Below are positions 3,097 through 20,426 of a stretch of DNA of 30,277 nucleotides, piece by piece. Position 1 is the first letter of the stretch. Every line of letters starts with the position of its first letter. The notes beneath the pieces are model-generated. The model had not been told where the DNA came from and did no database searches. It saw only the letters and a list, made by a program, of their open reading frames with translations. Made by a program: the position numbers and the translations under genes. The DNA is from a virus: IMG/VR virus record IMGVR_UViG_3300033998_000358, positions 1 to 30,277 of that record; one strand, 5' to 3'.

Positions 3097-6000
3097 TCAA
3101 TAAGGCTTTGTATAAGAAAATTCTCCTACACCACCATATAAATTATCTGGAACAACATAATCTTCTCTGACCAAAGTAGGATAAACATTAAAAACAATGT
3201 CATAAGGACCCACAAACCCGCAATAGTGTCTGCTACCATCTTCTAACATCACATAAGTTTTATAACGCCTTACTCCTTTTTCGCTGTCCAAATACGTTGT
3301 CCCTTTCAACCCAGATAACATATAGAAGTTTCTTACACACCAATCTTTAGGCACAGGGTTTGTAATTGTATCGTGCCATGCTAACCAAGGATAAATTCTT
3401 TTATAATCCCCATCCCATTCGGAAGTTTTTGTAAAGTCCACCGTTAAAACATCGTCAACATAAACCTTCAAATATTCCCCTGCTGTTTGAACAAGTTTTA
3501 TCGTTATGGGCGCTAAAGAAGAAGGCGTAGTAGGAATAATCAATTTGCCTCTTCCTGTTCCATTGCCAAAAAAGCCTCGGCTTCCTGTTTCTGTCCTTAA
3601 TACATTTACTGATAACGAAATGCCTCCTTCTTCTCTTGCTAGGATAAGAACGTTAAGCATGGCCTCGTCAAAACCATAATCTGGATAATCCGTTTGTTGT
3701 CCTGTAGTTCGATACTTCCTGTGGGAATGAAGGAAAAGATTTGTGGCATCTCCAGCCATAAGGTCGTTCAATGCACCATAAGAAGAACCCGCTGCAATTT
3801 TAAAGGAAATGTCCCAATTAACCAATTGCCCTCCATAGCCAATAGTGTTACCATTTATTTCTCTCAACAAAGTTCCATAATATGGAGCAGCAATAAACTC
3901 ACTCCCTTCTCTTACAACAATAGAACAACTATAATTAAGTTCTCCTCCAACAGGGAAATTGTAGTATTTTTTCTGGAAAACTACAGATTCATAAACCGTA
4001 CCATCTGCTTGAGTAAAGGAAACTTTTGCAGTAACATCTATTTCAGAAGGAATGGAAGTCCAAGTGTGGGCATAAGAATGGTATCCATTGCCATCTACGG
4101 TAAAATAAAAATACCCTTCTTGGTCTCCTGTTCCGTCACCATGGTTAACTCCTACAAGGAAATCAGGGAAAAATTCTGGAACCCTTTCATCTGTTTGAAT
4201 TTCTAAAAGGTATTCTTTATCCTTTGTTATTGCATCTGGAACCGTTAAAAGATTTTCCCAAGAAGGTGCGACAACTTGAATTGGTCTATTTAACGGCATC
4301 GCTTCGGAAGTTACAGTTTCCCCCTCATAAGTCACCCAAAGGGAAATGGTAGGCGTCATTTCACCAATAGTTCCAAACCTTACTTCTGTAGAATTTACAC
4401 CTCCACTAATATTGAGTGGAGCAGAACCGTCACCTAAATCTATCGTTACCCCATAGTCTGCAACAGAAGAAGTATCAAAAACATATTCCCAACTTAACGT
4501 AATTGTCTCTAAAACATCTGTGTAATAACTGCTTGCCATGAAACCCCCAATTCCAAAAGAAGCATCTATTTCGGGGGTTATATTTTCTGAAGTAGTTTGT
4601 ATCTGTATTTCTTCCTCGTTACTATATCCTAAAATAAACCACTTATTTCTTTTTCCTGTTGGCCTGGCTAAAACCACAGTGCTATTTATCGCCTTTGGGA
4701 AGGGGTCAATACTTTTTGCAACAACCTCTTCTGCTTTGTTGTCTACTTTTACGGTATAGCGGTTTTTTCCTCTTCGTGCCACTATTTTGCCTCTGGCAAT
4801 ATTATGATATTGGCCTGTTTTCTTGCTTATGACATTTTTCAAGTCATCTAAAACAGTGATAGGTTCTTTAGGCAAGGACCCTTTAAGCCTCAAAAGTGAA
4901 GAAACCCCGGAAAGTTCTATTGCCTCACAGCAATTGGAAAGGTCAACTACTATGGCATCAATGTGCCAATCTTGCCCCAGCCAATTTATGTTGTCGTGGG
5001 GCGAAAAACCCGTATTAAGATATGTTGAAGCTGTTGCATGTCGCACCCGGGCCTTCTCTCTCAAAACATTTAAAGCAAAATTCTTTATTCCTTCCTCTGA
5101 ATTTAAAGCAATAGCCGTAGTTTCATAAGAAAACTTCCCTAAGAAATCTATGCTTTTTTGGTCAACTGCTTCTGCCCTAAGATGAACCTCGTGGCTATCC
5201 TCTGCCTCATATTTTTCTAACGCCGGGGGTGTGCTTATTCCCCCTGTTGAGCCATCATAAGCCTTCCTCCAACCCAATTTCGCGGCAGGAAAAGAGGAGC
5301 CCATAGGAAGATATAAACCCACCACACCATAAGTAAAATGCTCGGCAACAGAAAAGCCATTAAGGAAATCTGCCTCAGGATTAGTTACCATTGTTCCTTT
5401 CCATTTTTCCTTTGGCCACAAATACGGCCAATCATGCCAATCTTCTTCTGCAAATCCGATTTCATATGCAACATGTTCACCGCTTTCTCCTGTGGTATTC
5501 ATTTTAGAACCGGTCGGCGGGTCTACAGAATATTGAATTTTTTCAAACTTAGAAGAACCCAAAAGATTGACATTCCACGTCACTTCTGTTTTGTTCTGTT
5601 CTATCCACCCAGTGTGCAAACTTCCGCCTTCCCACCAGCTTTCATGAGCCCAAACCCTTGTGACAATTTCTACGTCATATCTGTTTTCATCTTGAATGTT
5701 TTTCCAAACAGTTTCTTTGTAATGCTTTGTTGAACCATCTTCATATTCCTCTACTTTTCTTGTCAAATAGCCATTTGCATCATAGTAATAACGTTCTTCT
5801 GCCTCTCCATCGCCTAAATCCGTTTTAACCCATTCCAATCTTTCCCCAAGCTTCTTTATGGAAACTGTTGCCCCGCCTGCCGAGTAATAATCATATGTAT
5901 AATCTGTTGCAACCGTATAATAAGTATCGTCTAGTGTAGCAACAACTTTGTTTGCATAATCCTGTGGTTTGTCTATTATATTAGGCGAGTCATCAGAAAT

Positions 6001-8121
6001 CACAACATCCGGGGTAAGAGTGTGTGAAGAAGGCAAAGCGTCAATATAATATTTACCGTCCCGGCCATAACGCAAAACAGCATTTAGGCCATAACAAACA
6101 TTGCGTGCAAATTGCCAAAAATCGGGTGGGTCCTCATCCTCGTTGTAGTAAACCGTTATGTTTTCTGAAAGCCAACTAGAGTCTGGACTACTTGCACTGC
6201 TAGGAAATTCTTCTATGGGAATAAGAGCGTTATCTATTTCTACACTTCCCCCATAATATTGAATCGCATCTCTTAACGCATAAATGGCATAACCGGTTGA
6301 GTATATAGCCTGGCCACCACCTGCTGTTATTGGGTCCGCAAAATAAACAGTATAACTATCTGTTGCCACATCATAAGAACGACTTGTTACAACCCCCGTG
6401 GCAACAGTATATTGTTCTTCGTTATCCTGGAACCATTTTATGGTTATCTCCGCTCCTTCACTTATTGCCGTGGCTAAGGAAACAGAACCTTCCATCGCCC
6501 CAAAGGTCCTATATGTTATTCCCCCATCTAAAACAGGTATATCATCATTGACAAAAAAACCATTTTTTATTGTTTTTAACAACGCGGGCCAAGCTTCTTC
6601 TATACCTCTATCATTCCAATTGTCGGGATATGTTGTGCCATCGATGTAAAAAGAATACAGATAGTCATACATTACATTCCAATCGGGATTATTGATATCC
6701 GTGTTAACGTCAACCTCTAGCTTTGCCGTTTGTTTTGCGATAGTGCTTGGACAAGACAGATAATGTCCTAAAATCATATAAGAATAATAATAGAGAGGGT
6801 CTTCTGCTGACATGCTGGCGCTATCCTGTACTTCATAAAACAAATCCCAACTACAAAACCAATTATAAAGAGAATCATGAGGGCCTGCATAAGGTTCTAA
6901 AAAGACAAAGCCAAATTCATAATATGGGTGCTCCGTATATACCCAAGAAGTGCTCAAATTTTCCATAGTAAGAAATAGCTTCCAACTGCCTAACAGCTCT
7001 TCATAAAAGAAACTTCTGTTTTTTCCGTAATATTGATACTGTTCATTAAGGTTGTCTCTAAAATATTCTTGGAAAAGAAACATTGCATAACGGAAGGCAA
7101 AAATTTCATGCAACAACTCTATGGAAATTGGTTCACACAAATAAGCATAATCCCCTAAAGCCCTTGCGACATAAAGCCGGTTGTAAAGGAAATCTAAAAT
7201 TCTATCCCTTTCTTCCTGGCCAATATAAGTCCATACTTTTTCTGGAATATGGAAATTTTCCCAACCTTCCCTTTGACGCAACCTGTCAAACCCCTGCACC
7301 AGATAATTCTGATAAGTTTCGTCTAACTCATAAGTCGCTCCGTACTTTTCTAAAGTAGTTAAAGGTCCGTCCTTTTGCAAATAATAGGAAAAATAATTTG
7401 TCCACCAATAGTCCTGGAAAGCATAGGTGCCTCCCCAATCAGCAGGTGACCCATCTAAGGTTGCTGTTATTGACGGAGTTTCCGCGGAAGGATACAAATA
7501 GTCATAAGTAAAACAATCTATATCTGGTGAGATTCCGCAAGAGAAATCAAAATAATCATATCGTGTTCCTGTTTCAAAATAAAATCTTGTTCGGGCATAA
7601 GTATAATAACCAGTGCCGTAATAATCTAGATAACCTCCTGATATAGAATAGCGGGCATCAGTTCCAGGAGGATTGCAATAAATATAAGCATGAGAAAAAT
7701 CAATGTTGCCATCCGCTTCTATTTCTGCAAGCGTTTTTGTCACTCCTGCTTTTGCTGTTGGTCTTTTAATGGGCATTCCTATATCTGCGACTAAAATCTC
7801 AAAAACATCATATCCAATAGGCTTTTTTCTTGTGGGAGCATTCATCAGCCAAACAGAAAACAAAGCAAGAGTATAAGAATAAGCAAACCACAAATCATGT
7901 TGAATTGTAAGAGCGCCCCTAGCGTCGTAAATGTGTTTTGAGATAGCAATCAAAATGTTATCTCTACTAGTCTGATCTACATAGTCCCAAAAATAAGACG
8001 GAATTTTAAAATTCTCCCACCCTTGATAGGCCCTTATATCAGCAAACCCATTTTGCAATCTTTGCAGGGTGGTAGGGTCTAACCCATCTGTAATTCCACA
8101 TTGTTCTATTCCTTCTGGCAT
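3097..8121 (-). CDS. Large tail tip / central baseplate hub protein (1674 residues)
   Basis: This is the largest gene in the window, starting behind AAGGAGGAGC. It lies where tail-tip or tail-associated hub proteins are encoded, after tape measure and distal tail genes. The N-terminus holds two copies of a segment (about residues 22-68 and 274-321), each containing GWENFxIP, in a Tyr-rich region. Residues about 600-1080 read like a gp27/gpJ-type hub (DKPQDYANKVVATL; INWLGQDWHIDAIVVDLSN). Residues about 1105-1165 resemble an OB-like domain. Two PKD-like beta-sandwiches follow (about 1200-1280 with DLGDGS, about 1290-1385 with NHGDGTGD). The last roughly 250 residues (GNTIGYGGQLVNWDISFKI, TIKLVQTAGEYLKVYVDDV) resemble a concanavalin/LamG-like lectin fold. 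A role in host binding and DNA ejection is inferred. No peptidase or lysozyme motif is apparent. Confidence 0.75.
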   Translation of the reverse strand: MPEGIEQCGITDGLDPTTLQRLQNGFADIRAYQGWENFKIPSYFWDYVDQTSRDNILIAISKHIYDARGALTIQHDLWFAYSYTLALFSVWLMNAPTRKKPIGYDVFEILVADIGMPIKRPTAKAGVTKTLAEIEADGNIDFSHAYIYCNPPGTDARYSISGGYLDYYGTGYYTYARTRFYFETGTRYDYFDFSCGISPDIDCFTYDYLYPSAETPSITATLDGSPADWGGTYAFQDYWWTNYFSYYLQKDGPLTTLEKYGATYELDETYQNYLVQGFDRLRQREGWENFHIPEKVWTYIGQEERDRILDFLYNRLYVARALGDYAYLCEPISIELLHEIFAFRYAMFLFQEYFRDNLNEQYQYYGKNRSFFYEELLGSWKLFLTMENLSTSWVYTEHPYYEFGFVFLEPYAGPHDSLYNWFCSWDLFYEVQDSASMSAEDPLYYYSYMILGHYLSCPSTIAKQTAKLEVDVNTDINNPDWNVMYDYLYSFYIDGTTYPDNWNDRGIEEAWPALLKTIKNGFFVNDDIPVLDGGITYRTFGAMEGSVSLATAISEGAEITIKWFQDNEEQYTVATGVVTSRSYDVATDSYTVYFADPITAGGGQAIYSTGYAIYALRDAIQYYGGSVEIDNALIPIEEFPSSASSPDSSWLSENITVYYNEDEDPPDFWQFARNVCYGLNAVLRYGRDGKYYIDALPSSHTLTPDVVISDDSPNIIDKPQDYANKVVATLDDTYYTVATDYTYDYYSAGGATVSIKKLGERLEWVKTDLGDGEAEERYYYDANGYLTRKVEEYEDGSTKHYKETVWKNIQDENRYDVEIVTRVWAHESWWEGGSLHTGWIEQNKTEVTWNVNLLGSSKFEKIQYSVDPPTGSKMNTTGESGEHVAYEIGFAEEDWHDWPYLWPKEKWKGTMVTNPEADFLNGFSVAEHFTYGVVGLYLPMGSSFPAAKLGWRKAYDGSTGGISTPPALEKYEAEDSHEVHLRAEAVDQKSIDFLGKFSYETTAIALNSEEGIKNFALNVLREKARVRHATASTYLNTGFSPHDNINWLGQDWHIDAIVVDLSNCCEAIELSGVSSLLRLKGSLPKEPITVLDDLKNVISKKTGQYHNIARGKIVARRGKNRYTVKVDNKAEEVVAKSIDPFPKAINSTVVLARPTGKRNKWFILGYSNEEEIQIQTTSENITPEIDASFGIGGFMASSYYTDVLETITLSWEYVFDTSSVADYGVTIDLGDGSAPLNISGGVNSTEVRFGTIGEMTPTISLWVTYEGETVTSEAMPLNRPIQVVAPSWENLLTVPDAITKDKEYLLEIQTDERVPEFFPDFLVGVNHGDGTGDQEGYFYFTVDGNGYHSYAHTWTSIPSEIDVTAKVSFTQADGTVYESVVFQKKYYNFPVGGELNYSCSIVVREGSEFIAAPYYGTLLREINGNTIGYGGQLVNWDISFKIAAGSSYGALNDLMAGDATNLFLHSHRKYRTTGQQTDYPDYGFDEAMLNVLILAREEGGISLSVNVLRTETGSRGFFGNGTGRGKLIIPTTPSSLAPITIKLVQTAGEYLKVYVDDVLTVDFTKTSEWDGDYKRIYPWLAWHDTITNPVPKDWCVRNFYMLSGLKGTTYLDSEKGVRRYKTYVMLEDGSRHYCGFVGPYDIVFNVYPTLVREDYVVPDNLYGGVGEFSYTKPY

Positions 8122-13635: not shown

Positions 13636-14010
13636 TCACCACTCCTCAAATGGAACAGCGTACAACTTTGCCTGTTTCCTACCAAGAGCGGCCATCTTTC
13701 CAGTTGAATCTAAAGTCAGAACCATCTGTCCATAAGGCGTAGAAGATAATCCTGAACCATACTGCCCTATATATTTTATCTTAGCTCCTCCTGCTTCTTC
13801 TTGTTCCGCCATTCGTTCTCTAGTAGAAGCTATCATGTGCGCGGCTAACCATTTTTCTATCTCTGCAAGTACGCTTTCTCCTAAAGTTGAACTGCCTAAT
13901 ACATTAGTAACCAAAGTGTTAGCACTATTGATAAACCCTTCTACTACAGCATCAGTGAGTTCCGTATCATCTAGTATGGCTTTCACCTCATTAGCGGTTA
14001 CTCTTGCCAT
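13636..14010 (-). CDS. Head-tail connector / adaptor protein (gp6-like)
   Basis: The 124-residue, mostly helical protein (VTANEVKAILDDTELTDAVV, LAEIEKWLAAHMIASTRERM) with a C-terminal YGSGLSSTPYGQMVLTLD segment resembles small adaptors that bind the portal ring (gp6/DUF4054 type). Its ribosome binding site, GAGGAGG, and its first 20 bases lie inside the 3' end of the sulfotransferase gene, so the last cassette gene is tightly joined to this conserved neck gene. It is the first neck gene after the sugar cassette. Confidence 0.75.
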   Translation of the reverse strand: MARVTANEVKAILDDTELTDAVVEGFINSANTLVTNVLGSSTLGESVLAEIEKWLAAHMIASTRERMAEQEEAGGAKIKYIGQYGSGLSSTPYGQMVLTLDSTGKMAALGRKQAKLYAVPFEEW

Positions 14011-16053: not shown

Positions 16054-18210
16054 TTATCTATCAAACAACTCTTTCAAAAAAGAATCTAAAACTACAATAT
16101 CTTTATAAGTTGGCAAAAATTGATTTTGAAACCAAACCATTTGTGTTTCTTGATCATGTATTTTTTCTATCGTCCTTTCATTATCTCCTTTATCTCCGCC
16201 CCATTCAATATATGCTTTATAGTGTCGCTGTTCTGGTTTCAATCCCAACGTATAAAAACTAAACCCTGTTACATACAATTCTTTAGGGTGTTTCTGAGCA
16301 AGCATACACATAGCTAGAATTCCAGAATTTGGGTGAGTCTTTATCCAACGATGATAAAATTCCCAATGATAAAGACTAATAACAAAATGATCAACATGAG
16401 GAGCATACTTATCCAATAACCTTAAAAACTTTTGTTGGGCTCCAATGTTTGCAGTATCTTTCCTTCGCTGAACGATAACAAAAGCTTTCAGATTATCTAG
16501 AACATCAGATCTGTTTTCTTTAAGAAAATTCATTGTTTTTTCGAAATTAGTATAGTTTTTCGTATTACATCCATAGAAAACAACATCTGTCTTGGAGCCG
16601 TAATCTTCTTCCATATCGAAAGGATAAATCTCATTTATTCTACAAACAAGATCATAATCATCAATAATCTTCCCCTCACCTTTTCCTTGTAGATGAGGAG
16701 AAGAACCTACCAATGCAATTCTCTTATCTTTCACAAGTTTGGTAAACAATTCATCATTATAATGCTGTTTCATTCTTATGGCCCAAAGAAGCCTGTGGGC
16801 TTGATTTCTTCTAATGTTGTATTGTTTCCTAGACTCAAAAATCTTCTTATCTGCTTCATTCTGATTGCAGTTTCTATTTCTCTTCATTGTAGCATCTTCT
16901 GCTCCTGTCACACTGTGGTGATAATGTTTTATGAGAATATCTGAGAAATAGAGAATTCTTTCTGAAATCCCCATCTGTTTCGCTATTTCAAAAAGCTCTG
17001 TATCATGTCGAAAGAAAGTATAGCACTCAGGCACGAATTGATTCAGTTCCTCTAACCAAGCCCTTCCTACTATAGGAAAGGCACAATGAGCTTCTCCGTT
17101 TATCCCATCATTACAGTAGGCAAGAAAAATGCCATCAGGTATTTTTACAAAAGAGGTGAGAAGTTTAAAATCCCAATCAAAAGTTTCATGAACTAGATCA
17201 TCATTCGCCATCATAAGATATTCACCATCAGACATTCGAGCTAAAACATTCCAAGCTCTACCTACACCAACATTCGGACCTACCACCAACTTACAATTAG
17301 GCCTAGTGCTCAACAGTTCTACATATTGACGCAAACAAGGGTCGTCAGAATCAACATAGAAAAGAACTTCTACATACTCTGGATTCTTAGCAGTGGCGAA
17401 AACACTTTCAAGATATCTTAAAGCCATAGCCGGCCTTTCTCTTGTAGGACACAAAAGACTGAACCAAGGACGCACATATGGAAGAGCATCTACTCTTTCT
17501 TTATTTATTTTTTCAAAAGGAACTGCTTGTCCTCTGACAGGAATCCCTTCATCTATGTATTTGGCAACCCATTGAACACTTTCTGCCGCCTGCCATATTC
17601 TAGGCTGACCATGAAAACAAACAAGACTTGCATTAGAAGGAATTTGTTGGAGCCAATTTTTTCTAGTAGGTTTGAAACTGAATATTCGACCAGGATACTT
17701 CCTCTGAAAATAAAAGTCTGGAGCAACAACCGACTCGATAAAATCTTGGTCACCTCTATAGCGTTTCATTGCATCAACAGAATCTTTTATCCAACAACCC
17801 CATATATGAGACACTTTCTTATTTTCTTTAGGGATCCACATAACCCCAGAAGCAGGTCTACTTGAACGGTGGAAATCTTGAAGCATTCCGAATCCTTTAT
17901 TATCCACATCTAAAAAATCTAAAGAACCAACGCAAGCTGTATCCAGATCTAAATATAAAAAAGGCCTGTATTCTTCTAGCTCTGGAGAAAACAAATTCAT
18001 CTTAGACCACCAGCCAGGCCATTCAGGATTAGTGAAAGGAACAAGTACTAGGTCTTTAAGCTTCATCTCTTTCTCAACTTCAGTCAAACAATATACGTTT
18101 ACTTTTCCTCTATTCTGTTCATACAATCGCTTGGTAAGTAGATCTACGTCCTTAAAAGAGAAATCACCGCCTTTCTTTAAAACAAGAAAAACATTTATCT
18201 TCTGATTCAT
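16054..18210 (-). CDS. Three-domain glycosyltransferase: GT8-like, GT2-like and GT29 sialyltransferase-like
   Basis: The 718-residue protein appears to join three transferases. Residues 1-220 look like a GT-A, GT8-like domain with FLYLDLDTA (D88xD90) and a late HGQPRIWQA. Residues about 248-445 look like a GT2-type domain (LLCPTRERPAMALRYLES, VDSDD at 286-290, ANDD at 335-338). Residues about 495-718 resemble GT29: an L-type sialylmotif (RIALVGSSPHLQGKGEG then DLVCRIN, 497-526), an S-type motif (HPNSGILAMCMLAQ... ELYVTGFSF, 626-652), HY at 663-664 for motif III, and HDQE (685-688) for the VS region. GT29 enzymes use CMP-sialic acid or CMP-Kdo. The start overlaps the previous gene by ATGA. No signal peptide or membrane anchor is seen, so it should act in the cytoplasm. 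Acceptor unknown. Confidence 0.8.
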   Translation of the reverse strand: MNQKINVFLVLKKGGDFSFKDVDLLTKRLYEQNRGKVNVYCLTEVEKEMKLKDLVLVPFTNPEWPGWWSKMNLFSPELEEYRPFLYLDLDTACVGSLDFLDVDNKGFGMLQDFHRSSRPASGVMWIPKENKKVSHIWGCWIKDSVDAMKRYRGDQDFIESVVAPDFYFQRKYPGRIFSFKPTRKNWLQQIPSNASLVCFHGQPRIWQAAESVQWVAKYIDEGIPVRGQAVPFEKINKERVDALPYVRPWFSLLCPTRERPAMALRYLESVFATAKNPEYVEVLFYVDSDDPCLRQYVELLSTRPNCKLVVGPNVGVGRAWNVLARMSDGEYLMMANDDLVHETFDWDFKLLTSFVKIPDGIFLAYCNDGINGEAHCAFPIVGRAWLEELNQFVPECYTFFRHDTELFEIAKQMGISERILYFSDILIKHYHHSVTGAEDATMKRNRNCNQNEADKKIFESRKQYNIRRNQAHRLLWAIRMKQHYNDELFTKLVKDKRIALVGSSPHLQGKGEGKIIDDYDLVCRINEIYPFDMEEDYGSKTDVVFYGCNTKNYTNFEKTMNFLKENRSDVLDNLKAFVIVQRRKDTANIGAQQKFLRLLDKYAPHVDHFVISLYHWEFYHRWIKTHPNSGILAMCMLAQKHPKELYVTGFSFYTLGLKPEQRHYKAYIEWGGDKGDNERTIEKIHDQETQMVWFQNQFLPTYKDIVVLDSFLKELFDR

Positions 18211-19340: not shown

Positions 19341-20426
19341 CTATGCGAGATGAACTATTCCAGAATTACCGTTCTGGTCTGCCCTTATCTGCGGCACCTG
19401 AATCGTCATCACTTTATACTTAGTGATGAAATTACCTTCAGTCTGCCACTCCACGTTCTGCAGGCCCATTCCTCTTACAAGGCGAACAACATCAGAAGTC
19501 ATCTGCACCAAAAGCACATTGTCAGCAGGAAGCGTATCTATTACTTTGACATCCAGAATTCCAGATATCTTCAAGATTCGCTCCCTGATAGTTGTACCAG
19601 GAGTAGTAGAATCATAATCTTCATCAAGTACAGTTTCATAAGCAGTAGGCACGTAAAGCATCCAAGGACCATAGTGCTTCGCATCTATACTGGCCTGTTT
19701 CATCGCAAGAACATCAGCTACTATCTGAGCGCCCGTCTTCGAAGAATCATTCCATGCCGTGGTAAGGGATACCTGATTCCTATGTGGGAAGTTCAGATAG
19801 CTATATATGGTCCCTCCTCCGAAACTATACGTGGTAGCAGTGAAAAGAAGCGATTCTAGTTTCTCAGATACTTTCCTTGCCGCTCTTTCTGCAAGAGTGG
19901 TATCAAGAGGATTCCCCATATTCCTACTGGCCGCAAGAACTCTGGCATTGATCTCATAATCTGCATGGATTATAGGAATAGGCAGATAGTTGGTACCGTA
20001 TATCGGCCTATCACCTTTTGCCCTCGTGACGCCGTCCATGGTCATCTCAGCTTCGAGAGCATCGCTCACATCGTGCCACTCAAGAACAGTTGTCCCCATA
20101 GCGTTTCCAAGATTGTAAACAAGCCCTCTATCAATGAGATCTTGAATTCCATTCAACCTTGTCCGAGCAACGTTCAATACTGCCTCATCTAGCTGTTTCC
20201 ACTCGTCACGCCTAAGCGTTGCATTAGTCTGGATCGGTTTCACTGCATAACTTTCAGGCCGAGTAGGATCGCCACCCTGATAAACAGTAACATATGCCCT
20301 ACCATCAGAACCGATGTAAGGTCGTAAAAGACCAGAGTCAATTCTACCCTGAGAAGCAAGGTAGGTGGCCAACTCACCTTTCGTCTGACTGTTCGCTCCA
20401 ACAAAATCTAACATAACATTCGGCAT
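19341..20426 (-). CDS. Major capsid protein, encapsulin-like HK97 fold
   Basis: The 361-residue protein fits phage capsid proteins of the encapsulin/linocin-like branch of the HK97 fold. Recognisable parts are NATLRRDEWKQLDEAVLNVA and RLNGIQDLIDRGLVYNLGNA near the N-terminus, the middle ERAARKVSEKLESLLFTAT, the peptide GPWMLYVPTAYETVLDEDYD, and the C-terminal NVLLVQMTSDVVRLVRGMGL. It has no long N-terminal delta domain; the scaffold is encoded separately upstream. It starts with AAGGAGGG as ribosome binding site and follows the decoration-like gene, the usual order. Confidence 0.88.
   Translation of the reverse strand: MPNVMLDFVGANSQTKGELATYLASQGRIDSGLLRPYIGSDGRAYVTVYQGGDPTRPESYAVKPIQTNATLRRDEWKQLDEAVLNVARTRLNGIQDLIDRGLVYNLGNAMGTTVLEWHDVSDALEAEMTMDGVTRAKGDRPIYGTNYLPIPIIHADYEINARVLAASRNMGNPLDTTLAERAARKVSEKLESLLFTATTYSFGGGTIYSYLNFPHRNQVSLTTAWNDSSKTGAQIVADVLAMKQASIDAKHYGPWMLYVPTAYETVLDEDYDSTTPGTTIRERILKISGILDVKVIDTLPADNVLLVQMTSDVVRLVRGMGLQNVEWQTEGNFITKYKVMTIQVPQIRADQNGNSGIVHLA

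Follow-up and report, generated by a model that had tools for sequence, protein, structure and literature searches.

Maf proteins attach nonulosonic acids to flagellin, and the Maf of Clostridium botulinum transfers both Neu5Ac and Kdo to serine or threonine (PMC11339370). In the mycobacteriophage Che8 and its relatives, phage transferases covalently glycosylate the major capsid protein (Freeman 2023, as cited in PMC11256854). GT29, the family that builds animal sialosides, has a bacterial member published in 2018 (PMC5811610) and includes the plant protein RCKT1, which is likely a CMP-Kdo transferase (PMC11288761). The reach of GT29 into phages is undescribed in the open-licence papers searched: our searches, the last of them coarse, turned up nothing published on GT29 in phages or on capsid genes with Maf-like neighbours.

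The window analysed here is a 30,277-nucleotide stretch of viral DNA, in which an earlier note, made from the letters alone, had pointed to a protein at 16054-18210 that appeared to fuse three glycosyltransferases. The coordinates hold and the strand is minus, as for all window features given below: read from 18210 to 16054 the frame gives 718 residues without a stop, while the plus-strand translation is full of stops. Translation, Pfam, PHROG and motif searches identify this protein, P0001, as a three-domain glycosyltransferase. Profile searches run segment by segment placed its domains almost at the boundaries that had been proposed and assigned them to three families, GT8-like, GT2-like and GT29, with D88-L-D90, DSDD (within residues 285-291) and ANDD (335-338) where the note had put them. 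Domain 1 (residues 1-222; 17545-18210) matched PHROG 1962, the relatives of P1 PmgQ, at 2.5e-38. Its profile of 44 sequences found the solved structures of Skp1 galactosyltransferase (6mw5, 3.8e-8) and glycogenin (2.5e-6), and the columns of D88 and D90 are invariant, giving both GT8 similarity and a conserved DxD. Domain 2 (residues 248-452; 16855-17469) matched Pfam Glycos_transf_2 (PF00535) at 30.2 bits against a cut-off of 23.3, again with invariant aspartate columns, and its profile found the structures of TarP and chondroitin synthase, both GT2 enzymes. The family assignments of P0001's domains are strong.

Domain 3 (residues 454-718; 16057-16851) had been described as sialyltransferase-like, and both its sequence signature and its predicted fold are those of GT29. 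It matched PF00777 at 37.5 bits (cut-off 23, E=2.2e-9), and as 14 control genomes contained no match, this is far beyond chance. The PF00777 match stops at motif III, and the VS histidine is backed by the multiple alignment, in which it is conserved. A phage-family profile found ST3Gal-I at 1.4e-23, together with ST6Gal-I, ST8SiaIII, ST6GalNAc2 and, more weakly, the GT42 enzyme CstII. Because this profile contains strong jumbo-phage GT29 members, that E-value is a property of the family as a whole; domain 3 by itself, as a single sequence, reached ST3Gal-I at only 0.008. The predicted model, made from 12 sequences, is fair (pLDDT 75, pTM 0.77). Its 30 best Foldseek matches (E < 0.001) were all GT29 sialyltransferases, and VIA-align superposed it on ST3Gal-I (2wml) with a Z of 13.9 over 199 residues (3.2 A), with CstI and CstII close behind and Maf at 10.0; neither method pointed to a fold other than GT29. 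Residues 673-684, just before the VS histidine, are modelled below pLDDT 50, which counts against the explanation we favour below. The name sialyltransferase, as used for this domain, is a statement of GT29 membership and not proof of sialic acid.

The earlier note had also read L-, S-, III- and VS-like sialylmotifs in this domain, in that order. The order and the VS histidine stand, but key residues of motifs L and VS depart from the usual forms. GT29 enzymes usually carry VGNS in motif L and H-x4-E in motif VS, and other phage members, by alignment, also show these forms. P0001 has VGSS in motif L (about residues 497-546; 16573-16722) and H685-DQET-Q, an H685-x4-Q690, in motif VS (16141-16158), with the S region, NSG ... 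GFSFY (about residues 626-653; 16252-16335), and the III-like H663-Y664 (16213-16224) between them. Its nearest GT29 family, found in eight IMG/VR contigs at 27-32% identity, has VGPA or VGPS and HDQxxQM, and NSG and GxxFYxxG are strictly common to P0001 and this family. As the nearest phage relatives depart in the same way, the changes look like the mark of a subfamily and not of decay. They could also reflect a changed donor or acceptor, which weighs against the favoured explanation.

The note knew GT29 best from animals, but the family is not confined to them: besides the bacterial enzyme (PMC5811610), GT29 domains occur in Stenotrophomonas phage DLP_6, in two uncultured jumbo phages and in several IMG/VR contigs. 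One scan of genome contigs for GT29 returned a single Methanosarcina locus. The note also knew of no GT8-GT2-GT29 fusion in a phage, and among the phages searched we found the full order only in P0001, in scans that reach close relatives and do not prove uniqueness. No INPHARED record covered more than 32% of P0001, and single-sequence scans of viral contigs with domain 3, domain 2 and P0005 (described below), which can detect close relatives only, found no relative. Partial fusions do occur. L177 joins a domain 1 homologue to GT2, and L125, L160, L162, L185 and L189 probably do the same, judging from length and the domain 1 match. L029 has a domain 1 homologue and a GT29 domain after a region that is methyltransferase-like by eye, and in the L102 family GT29 is fused to another region.

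Two other clusters deserve mention. In the 484-kb uncultured jumbo phage LR756508 (L085 and L093, about 308-327 kb), seven GT29 matches fall in about five ORFs, which adjoin a NeuB-like synthase (Pfam NeuB, 4.9e-68) and a NeuA-like cytidylyltransferase; this is possibly a phage pathway of the sialic-acid type. In L102 (3736-13648), a GT29 of the nearest family is clustered with a GDP-mannose dehydratase, an SDR, a PseF-like synthetase, a GT2, a HAD-nucleotidyltransferase fusion and a methyltransferase, with an MptE/CST-I-like gene upstream (3736-4455).

The start of P0001 is overlapped by 4 nt by P0002 (18207-18908; 233 residues), which PHROG labels alpha-2,3-sialyltransferase and which has a Maf (MAF_flag10)/GT42-like fold. 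Its predicted model is very confident (pLDDT 95) and best matches the catalytic domain of the Magnetospirillum Maf, aligning to residues 256-510 of 5mu5 (Z 14.9, 189 residues, 3.8 A), as a MAF_flag10-type catalytic domain should; CstII and CstI (Z 12.0), MptE (10.7) and mammalian GT29 (8.8) follow. Its score against PF01973 (MptE-like) is 19.7 bits, under the curated cut-off of 34.6, and the N- and C-terminal domains that flank the centre of Maf are missing from P0002. We therefore call P0002 Maf-like on the strength of its fold, without counting it among the Mafs. An MptE pterin enzyme is less likely, as MptE ranks below CstII, and CstII below Maf, and the setting is one of glycan genes. A P0002 homologue, gp10 of Pseudomonas phage PAJU2 (L190), lies amid head and tail genes, and AP009624 calls it a structural protein. 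The PmgQ-type proteins of P1 (pmgQ) and P7 (hdmD) are homologues of domain 1, and in Citrobacter phage phiNP (L083:4481-5666) such a protein follows directly after a gene annotated as alpha-2,3-sialyltransferase, a pair that echoes the order of P0002 and P0001.

P0001 sits in a variable glycan island that runs from the major capsid protein gene (19341-20426), recognised by similarity to annotated capsid proteins, to hc1 (13636-14010), a head-completion-type gene called by position only. Between the capsid gene and P0002 lies P0006 (18912-19250; 112 residues), a small protein conserved in most relatives at 31-46% identity, which could be an acceptor or a helper. On the other side of P0001 is P0003 (14706-15995), a nucleotide-sugar dehydrogenase of the UDP-glucose type with the catalytic-cysteine motif GGACHPRD; it scores 200 bits against TIGR03026 (cut-off 189.8). 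P0004 (13991-14722) is sulfotransferase-like, at 26.7 bits against the cut-off of 27 for Sulfotransfer_3 (PF13469), and in relatives its counterpart usually lies towards the island's far end. P0006 and P0002 are 3 nt apart and, in addition to the overlap of P0002 with P0001, P0003 overlaps P0004 by 17 nt and P0004 overlaps hc1 by 20 nt. These overlaps suggest one transcription unit.

A scan with the capsid protein gave 80 related viral contigs (61-73% best-segment identity), and island genes were counted in the 48 of them in which the capsid gene and hc1 are both present. The spacing between the two boundary genes ranges from 7 to 9,448 nt. A P0002 homologue lies near the capsid end in 44 of the 48, a P0004-like sulfotransferase is present in 35 and homologues of domain 1 in 25. 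In three contigs (L169, L173 and L188) the site is empty, with no island and hc1 following the capsid gene after 7-75 nt; as the capsids of L169 and L173 are near-identical, these represent about two independent cases. The genes in the middle of the island vary widely. GT2 is matched by 16 of the 111 scanned, and others match methyltransferases, a GDP-mannose dehydratase, epimerases, GT11, sulfotransferase, radical SAM and UDP-GlcNAc 2-epimerase genes. Two contigs have, in the same island position, a 1268-residue fusion of two methyltransferase and two GT9 stretches that ends in a domain 1 homologue (L149:9022-12825 and L150:15627-19430). Alignment of capsid sequences from island-bearing and island-less phages showed no obvious acceptor loop or sequence, which speaks against the explanation favoured below. 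The nearest named capsid relatives are those of Brevundimonas phages, at 39%. Elsewhere in the window, a 1674-residue ORF (3097-8121) downstream of a tape-measure-like gene is probably a large tail protein.

Outside the island, P0005 (23497-24288) is a KdsB-like CTP:sugar cytidylyltransferase, or CMP-sugar synthetase. Like the island with its P0002, P0003 and P0004, it lay outside what the note had taken in. It matched the cytidylyltransferase family at 6.8e-26 with KdsB as the best match, was aligned to solved KdsB, and carries the IPARMDSTRLPGK N-terminal signature, NGTERVAE, CQGD (the QGD motif) and KIDT; against TIGR00466 it scores 97.5 bits, below the curated cut-off of 155.2. No Kdo synthesis genes were seen in the window, and a Gram-negative host would supply Kdo. 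The presence of P0005 makes a CMP-sugar donor for domain 3 more likely. As RCKT1 is likely a CMP-Kdo transferase, Kdo is a reasonable donor for a GT29 protein beside a KdsB-like gene, and Kdo or another ulosonic acid seems more likely than sialic acid. The score of P0005 below the curated cut-off and its distance of about 5.3 kb from P0001 count against this.

In the nearest GT29 family (L101-L108), a CMP-sugar synthetase gene lies 23-1,164 nt from the GT29 gene in all eight contigs, and those of L102, L103 and L107 resemble PseF. None was found in 35 capsid-related control contigs not known to carry GT29, whose fetched loci had been screened for GT29 with the window's domain 3 family. The P0002-bearing relatives are thus mostly without such a gene, and would need a donor from the host or a different donor, a point against the favoured explanation. 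By Fisher's test, 11 of 16 differs from 0 of 35 at 9e-8, with the eight contigs forming one lineage, the two groups being different phages and some contigs being fragments. There are also capsid relatives that bear GT29 without a synthetase (L147 and, weakly, L141 and L143). For these reasons the association of synthetase and GT29 is context and not a clean test.

The explanation we favour, and in which we place about half our confidence, is a pathway expressed late that would attach an acidic glycan to a protein of the virion and lengthen it, the GT29 domain drawing on CMP-Kdo or on a similar ulosonic acid donor. The donors, acceptors, order of addition and virion target that we infer are as follows. 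P0002 probably initiates the glycan by linking a sugar to a virion protein, and gene position alone makes the neighbouring major capsid protein its favoured target. P0001 would be the soluble three-domain glycosyltransferase of this late, capsid-linked island: its first two domains, GT8-like and GT2-like, probably transfer sugars sequentially from nucleotide-diphosphate donors, and its GT29 domain would use a CMP donor to add an acidic ulosonic acid, for which Kdo, after activation by P0005, is the likeliest candidate. P0001 may plausibly build an oligosaccharide and cap it. P0003, perhaps by making UDP-glucuronate, and P0004 would make the glycan more acidic.

When weighing this pathway, it is important to consider that the virion might be glycosylated while the GT29 domain uses something other than a CMP-ulosonic donor, or serves as a non-catalytic, sugar-binding part. 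The departures from VGNS to VGSS and from H-x4-E to H-x4-Q fit such a role, and there are plant GT29 proteins without discernible sialyltransferase activity (PMC11288761). We nevertheless think it unlikely: HDQxxQM and NSG are strictly kept at only 27-32% identity, which argues for a working site, and CMP-sugar synthetase genes accompany the eight-contig family. Modification of the host surface seems doubtful to a similar degree. The enzymes would alter LPS or capsule, perhaps to exclude superinfecting phages or to keep progeny from sticking to debris, and the GT29 domain would place Kdo or a sialic acid on an LPS acceptor. Kdo is indeed an LPS sugar, O-antigen modification by phages is known, and a nucleotide-sugar dehydrogenase with sugar-modifying enzymes would suit work on polysaccharides. 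The island, however, is embedded among the head genes and coupled to them, P0002 resembles a protein glycosyltransferase, and a GtrA-type flippase is absent from 21 of the group's contigs, many of them fragments. Far less probable than either is DNA hypermodification, in which the transferases would assemble a glycan on modified bases as a defence against restriction: DNA-hypermodifying glycosyltransferases encoded by viruses have been published (Pyle 2024, as cited in PMC12619734), but the site is capsid-adjacent, the first enzyme is Maf-like, and no thymidylate-synthase-family enzyme that could make hydroxymethyl bases was found in 21 of the group's contigs, although some of these are fragmentary and there are other routes to such bases.

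The acidic virion glycan thus stays our preferred reading, and it allows a broader, tentative proposal. A large group of tailed phages may carry an exchangeable island adjoining the capsid gene, where a Maf-like enzyme of one domain would start an acidic, protein-linked glycan on the capsid; here the GT8-GT2-GT29 protein would extend it and cap it with Kdo by means of the phage's own synthetase, giving a variable, sulfated, Kdo-bearing coat. The near-constant Maf-like gene and the exchangeable middle suggest variation of the virion glycan comparable to that of bacterial surface antigens. Virion glycosylation in these phages becomes directly testable by mass spectrometry, and P0001 could serve as a useful soluble reagent in Kdo or sialic-acid chemistry.

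Set beside known systems, domain 3 is like the GT29 sialyltransferases ST3Gal-I (2wnb) and ST8SiaIII (5bo9) in its PF00777 match, its fold, the order of L, S, III and VS and the VS histidine, and like the bacterial GT29 (PMC5811610) in being without an apparent anchor or disulfide cysteines. It differs from them as the third part of a phage fusion, in its VGSS and H-x4-Q variants and in that its sugar is probably Kdo or some other ulosonic acid, not Neu5Ac. Arabidopsis RCKT1/MGP2, a putative CMP-Kdo transferase (PMC11288761), is also a GT29 protein with Kdo as its likely sugar, but is an unfused Golgi pectin enzyme from outside phages. P1 PmgQ and P7 HdmD (PHROG 1962) share about 30% identity with domain 1, but are stand-alone genes. 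The mycobacteriophages offer the parallel of phage-encoded transferases and capsid glycans, the latter a proposal in the present case; the published account consulted mentions neither Maf-like nor GT29 proteins, and the present island is variable and capsid-adjacent. P0002 shares the catalytic-domain fold of Maf (5mu5; CbMaf, PMC11339370) and, by analogy, may share its protein target and CMP-ulosonic donor. In contrast to Maf, it is a protein of 233 residues with the central domain only, linked to a capsid gene rather than to flagellin.
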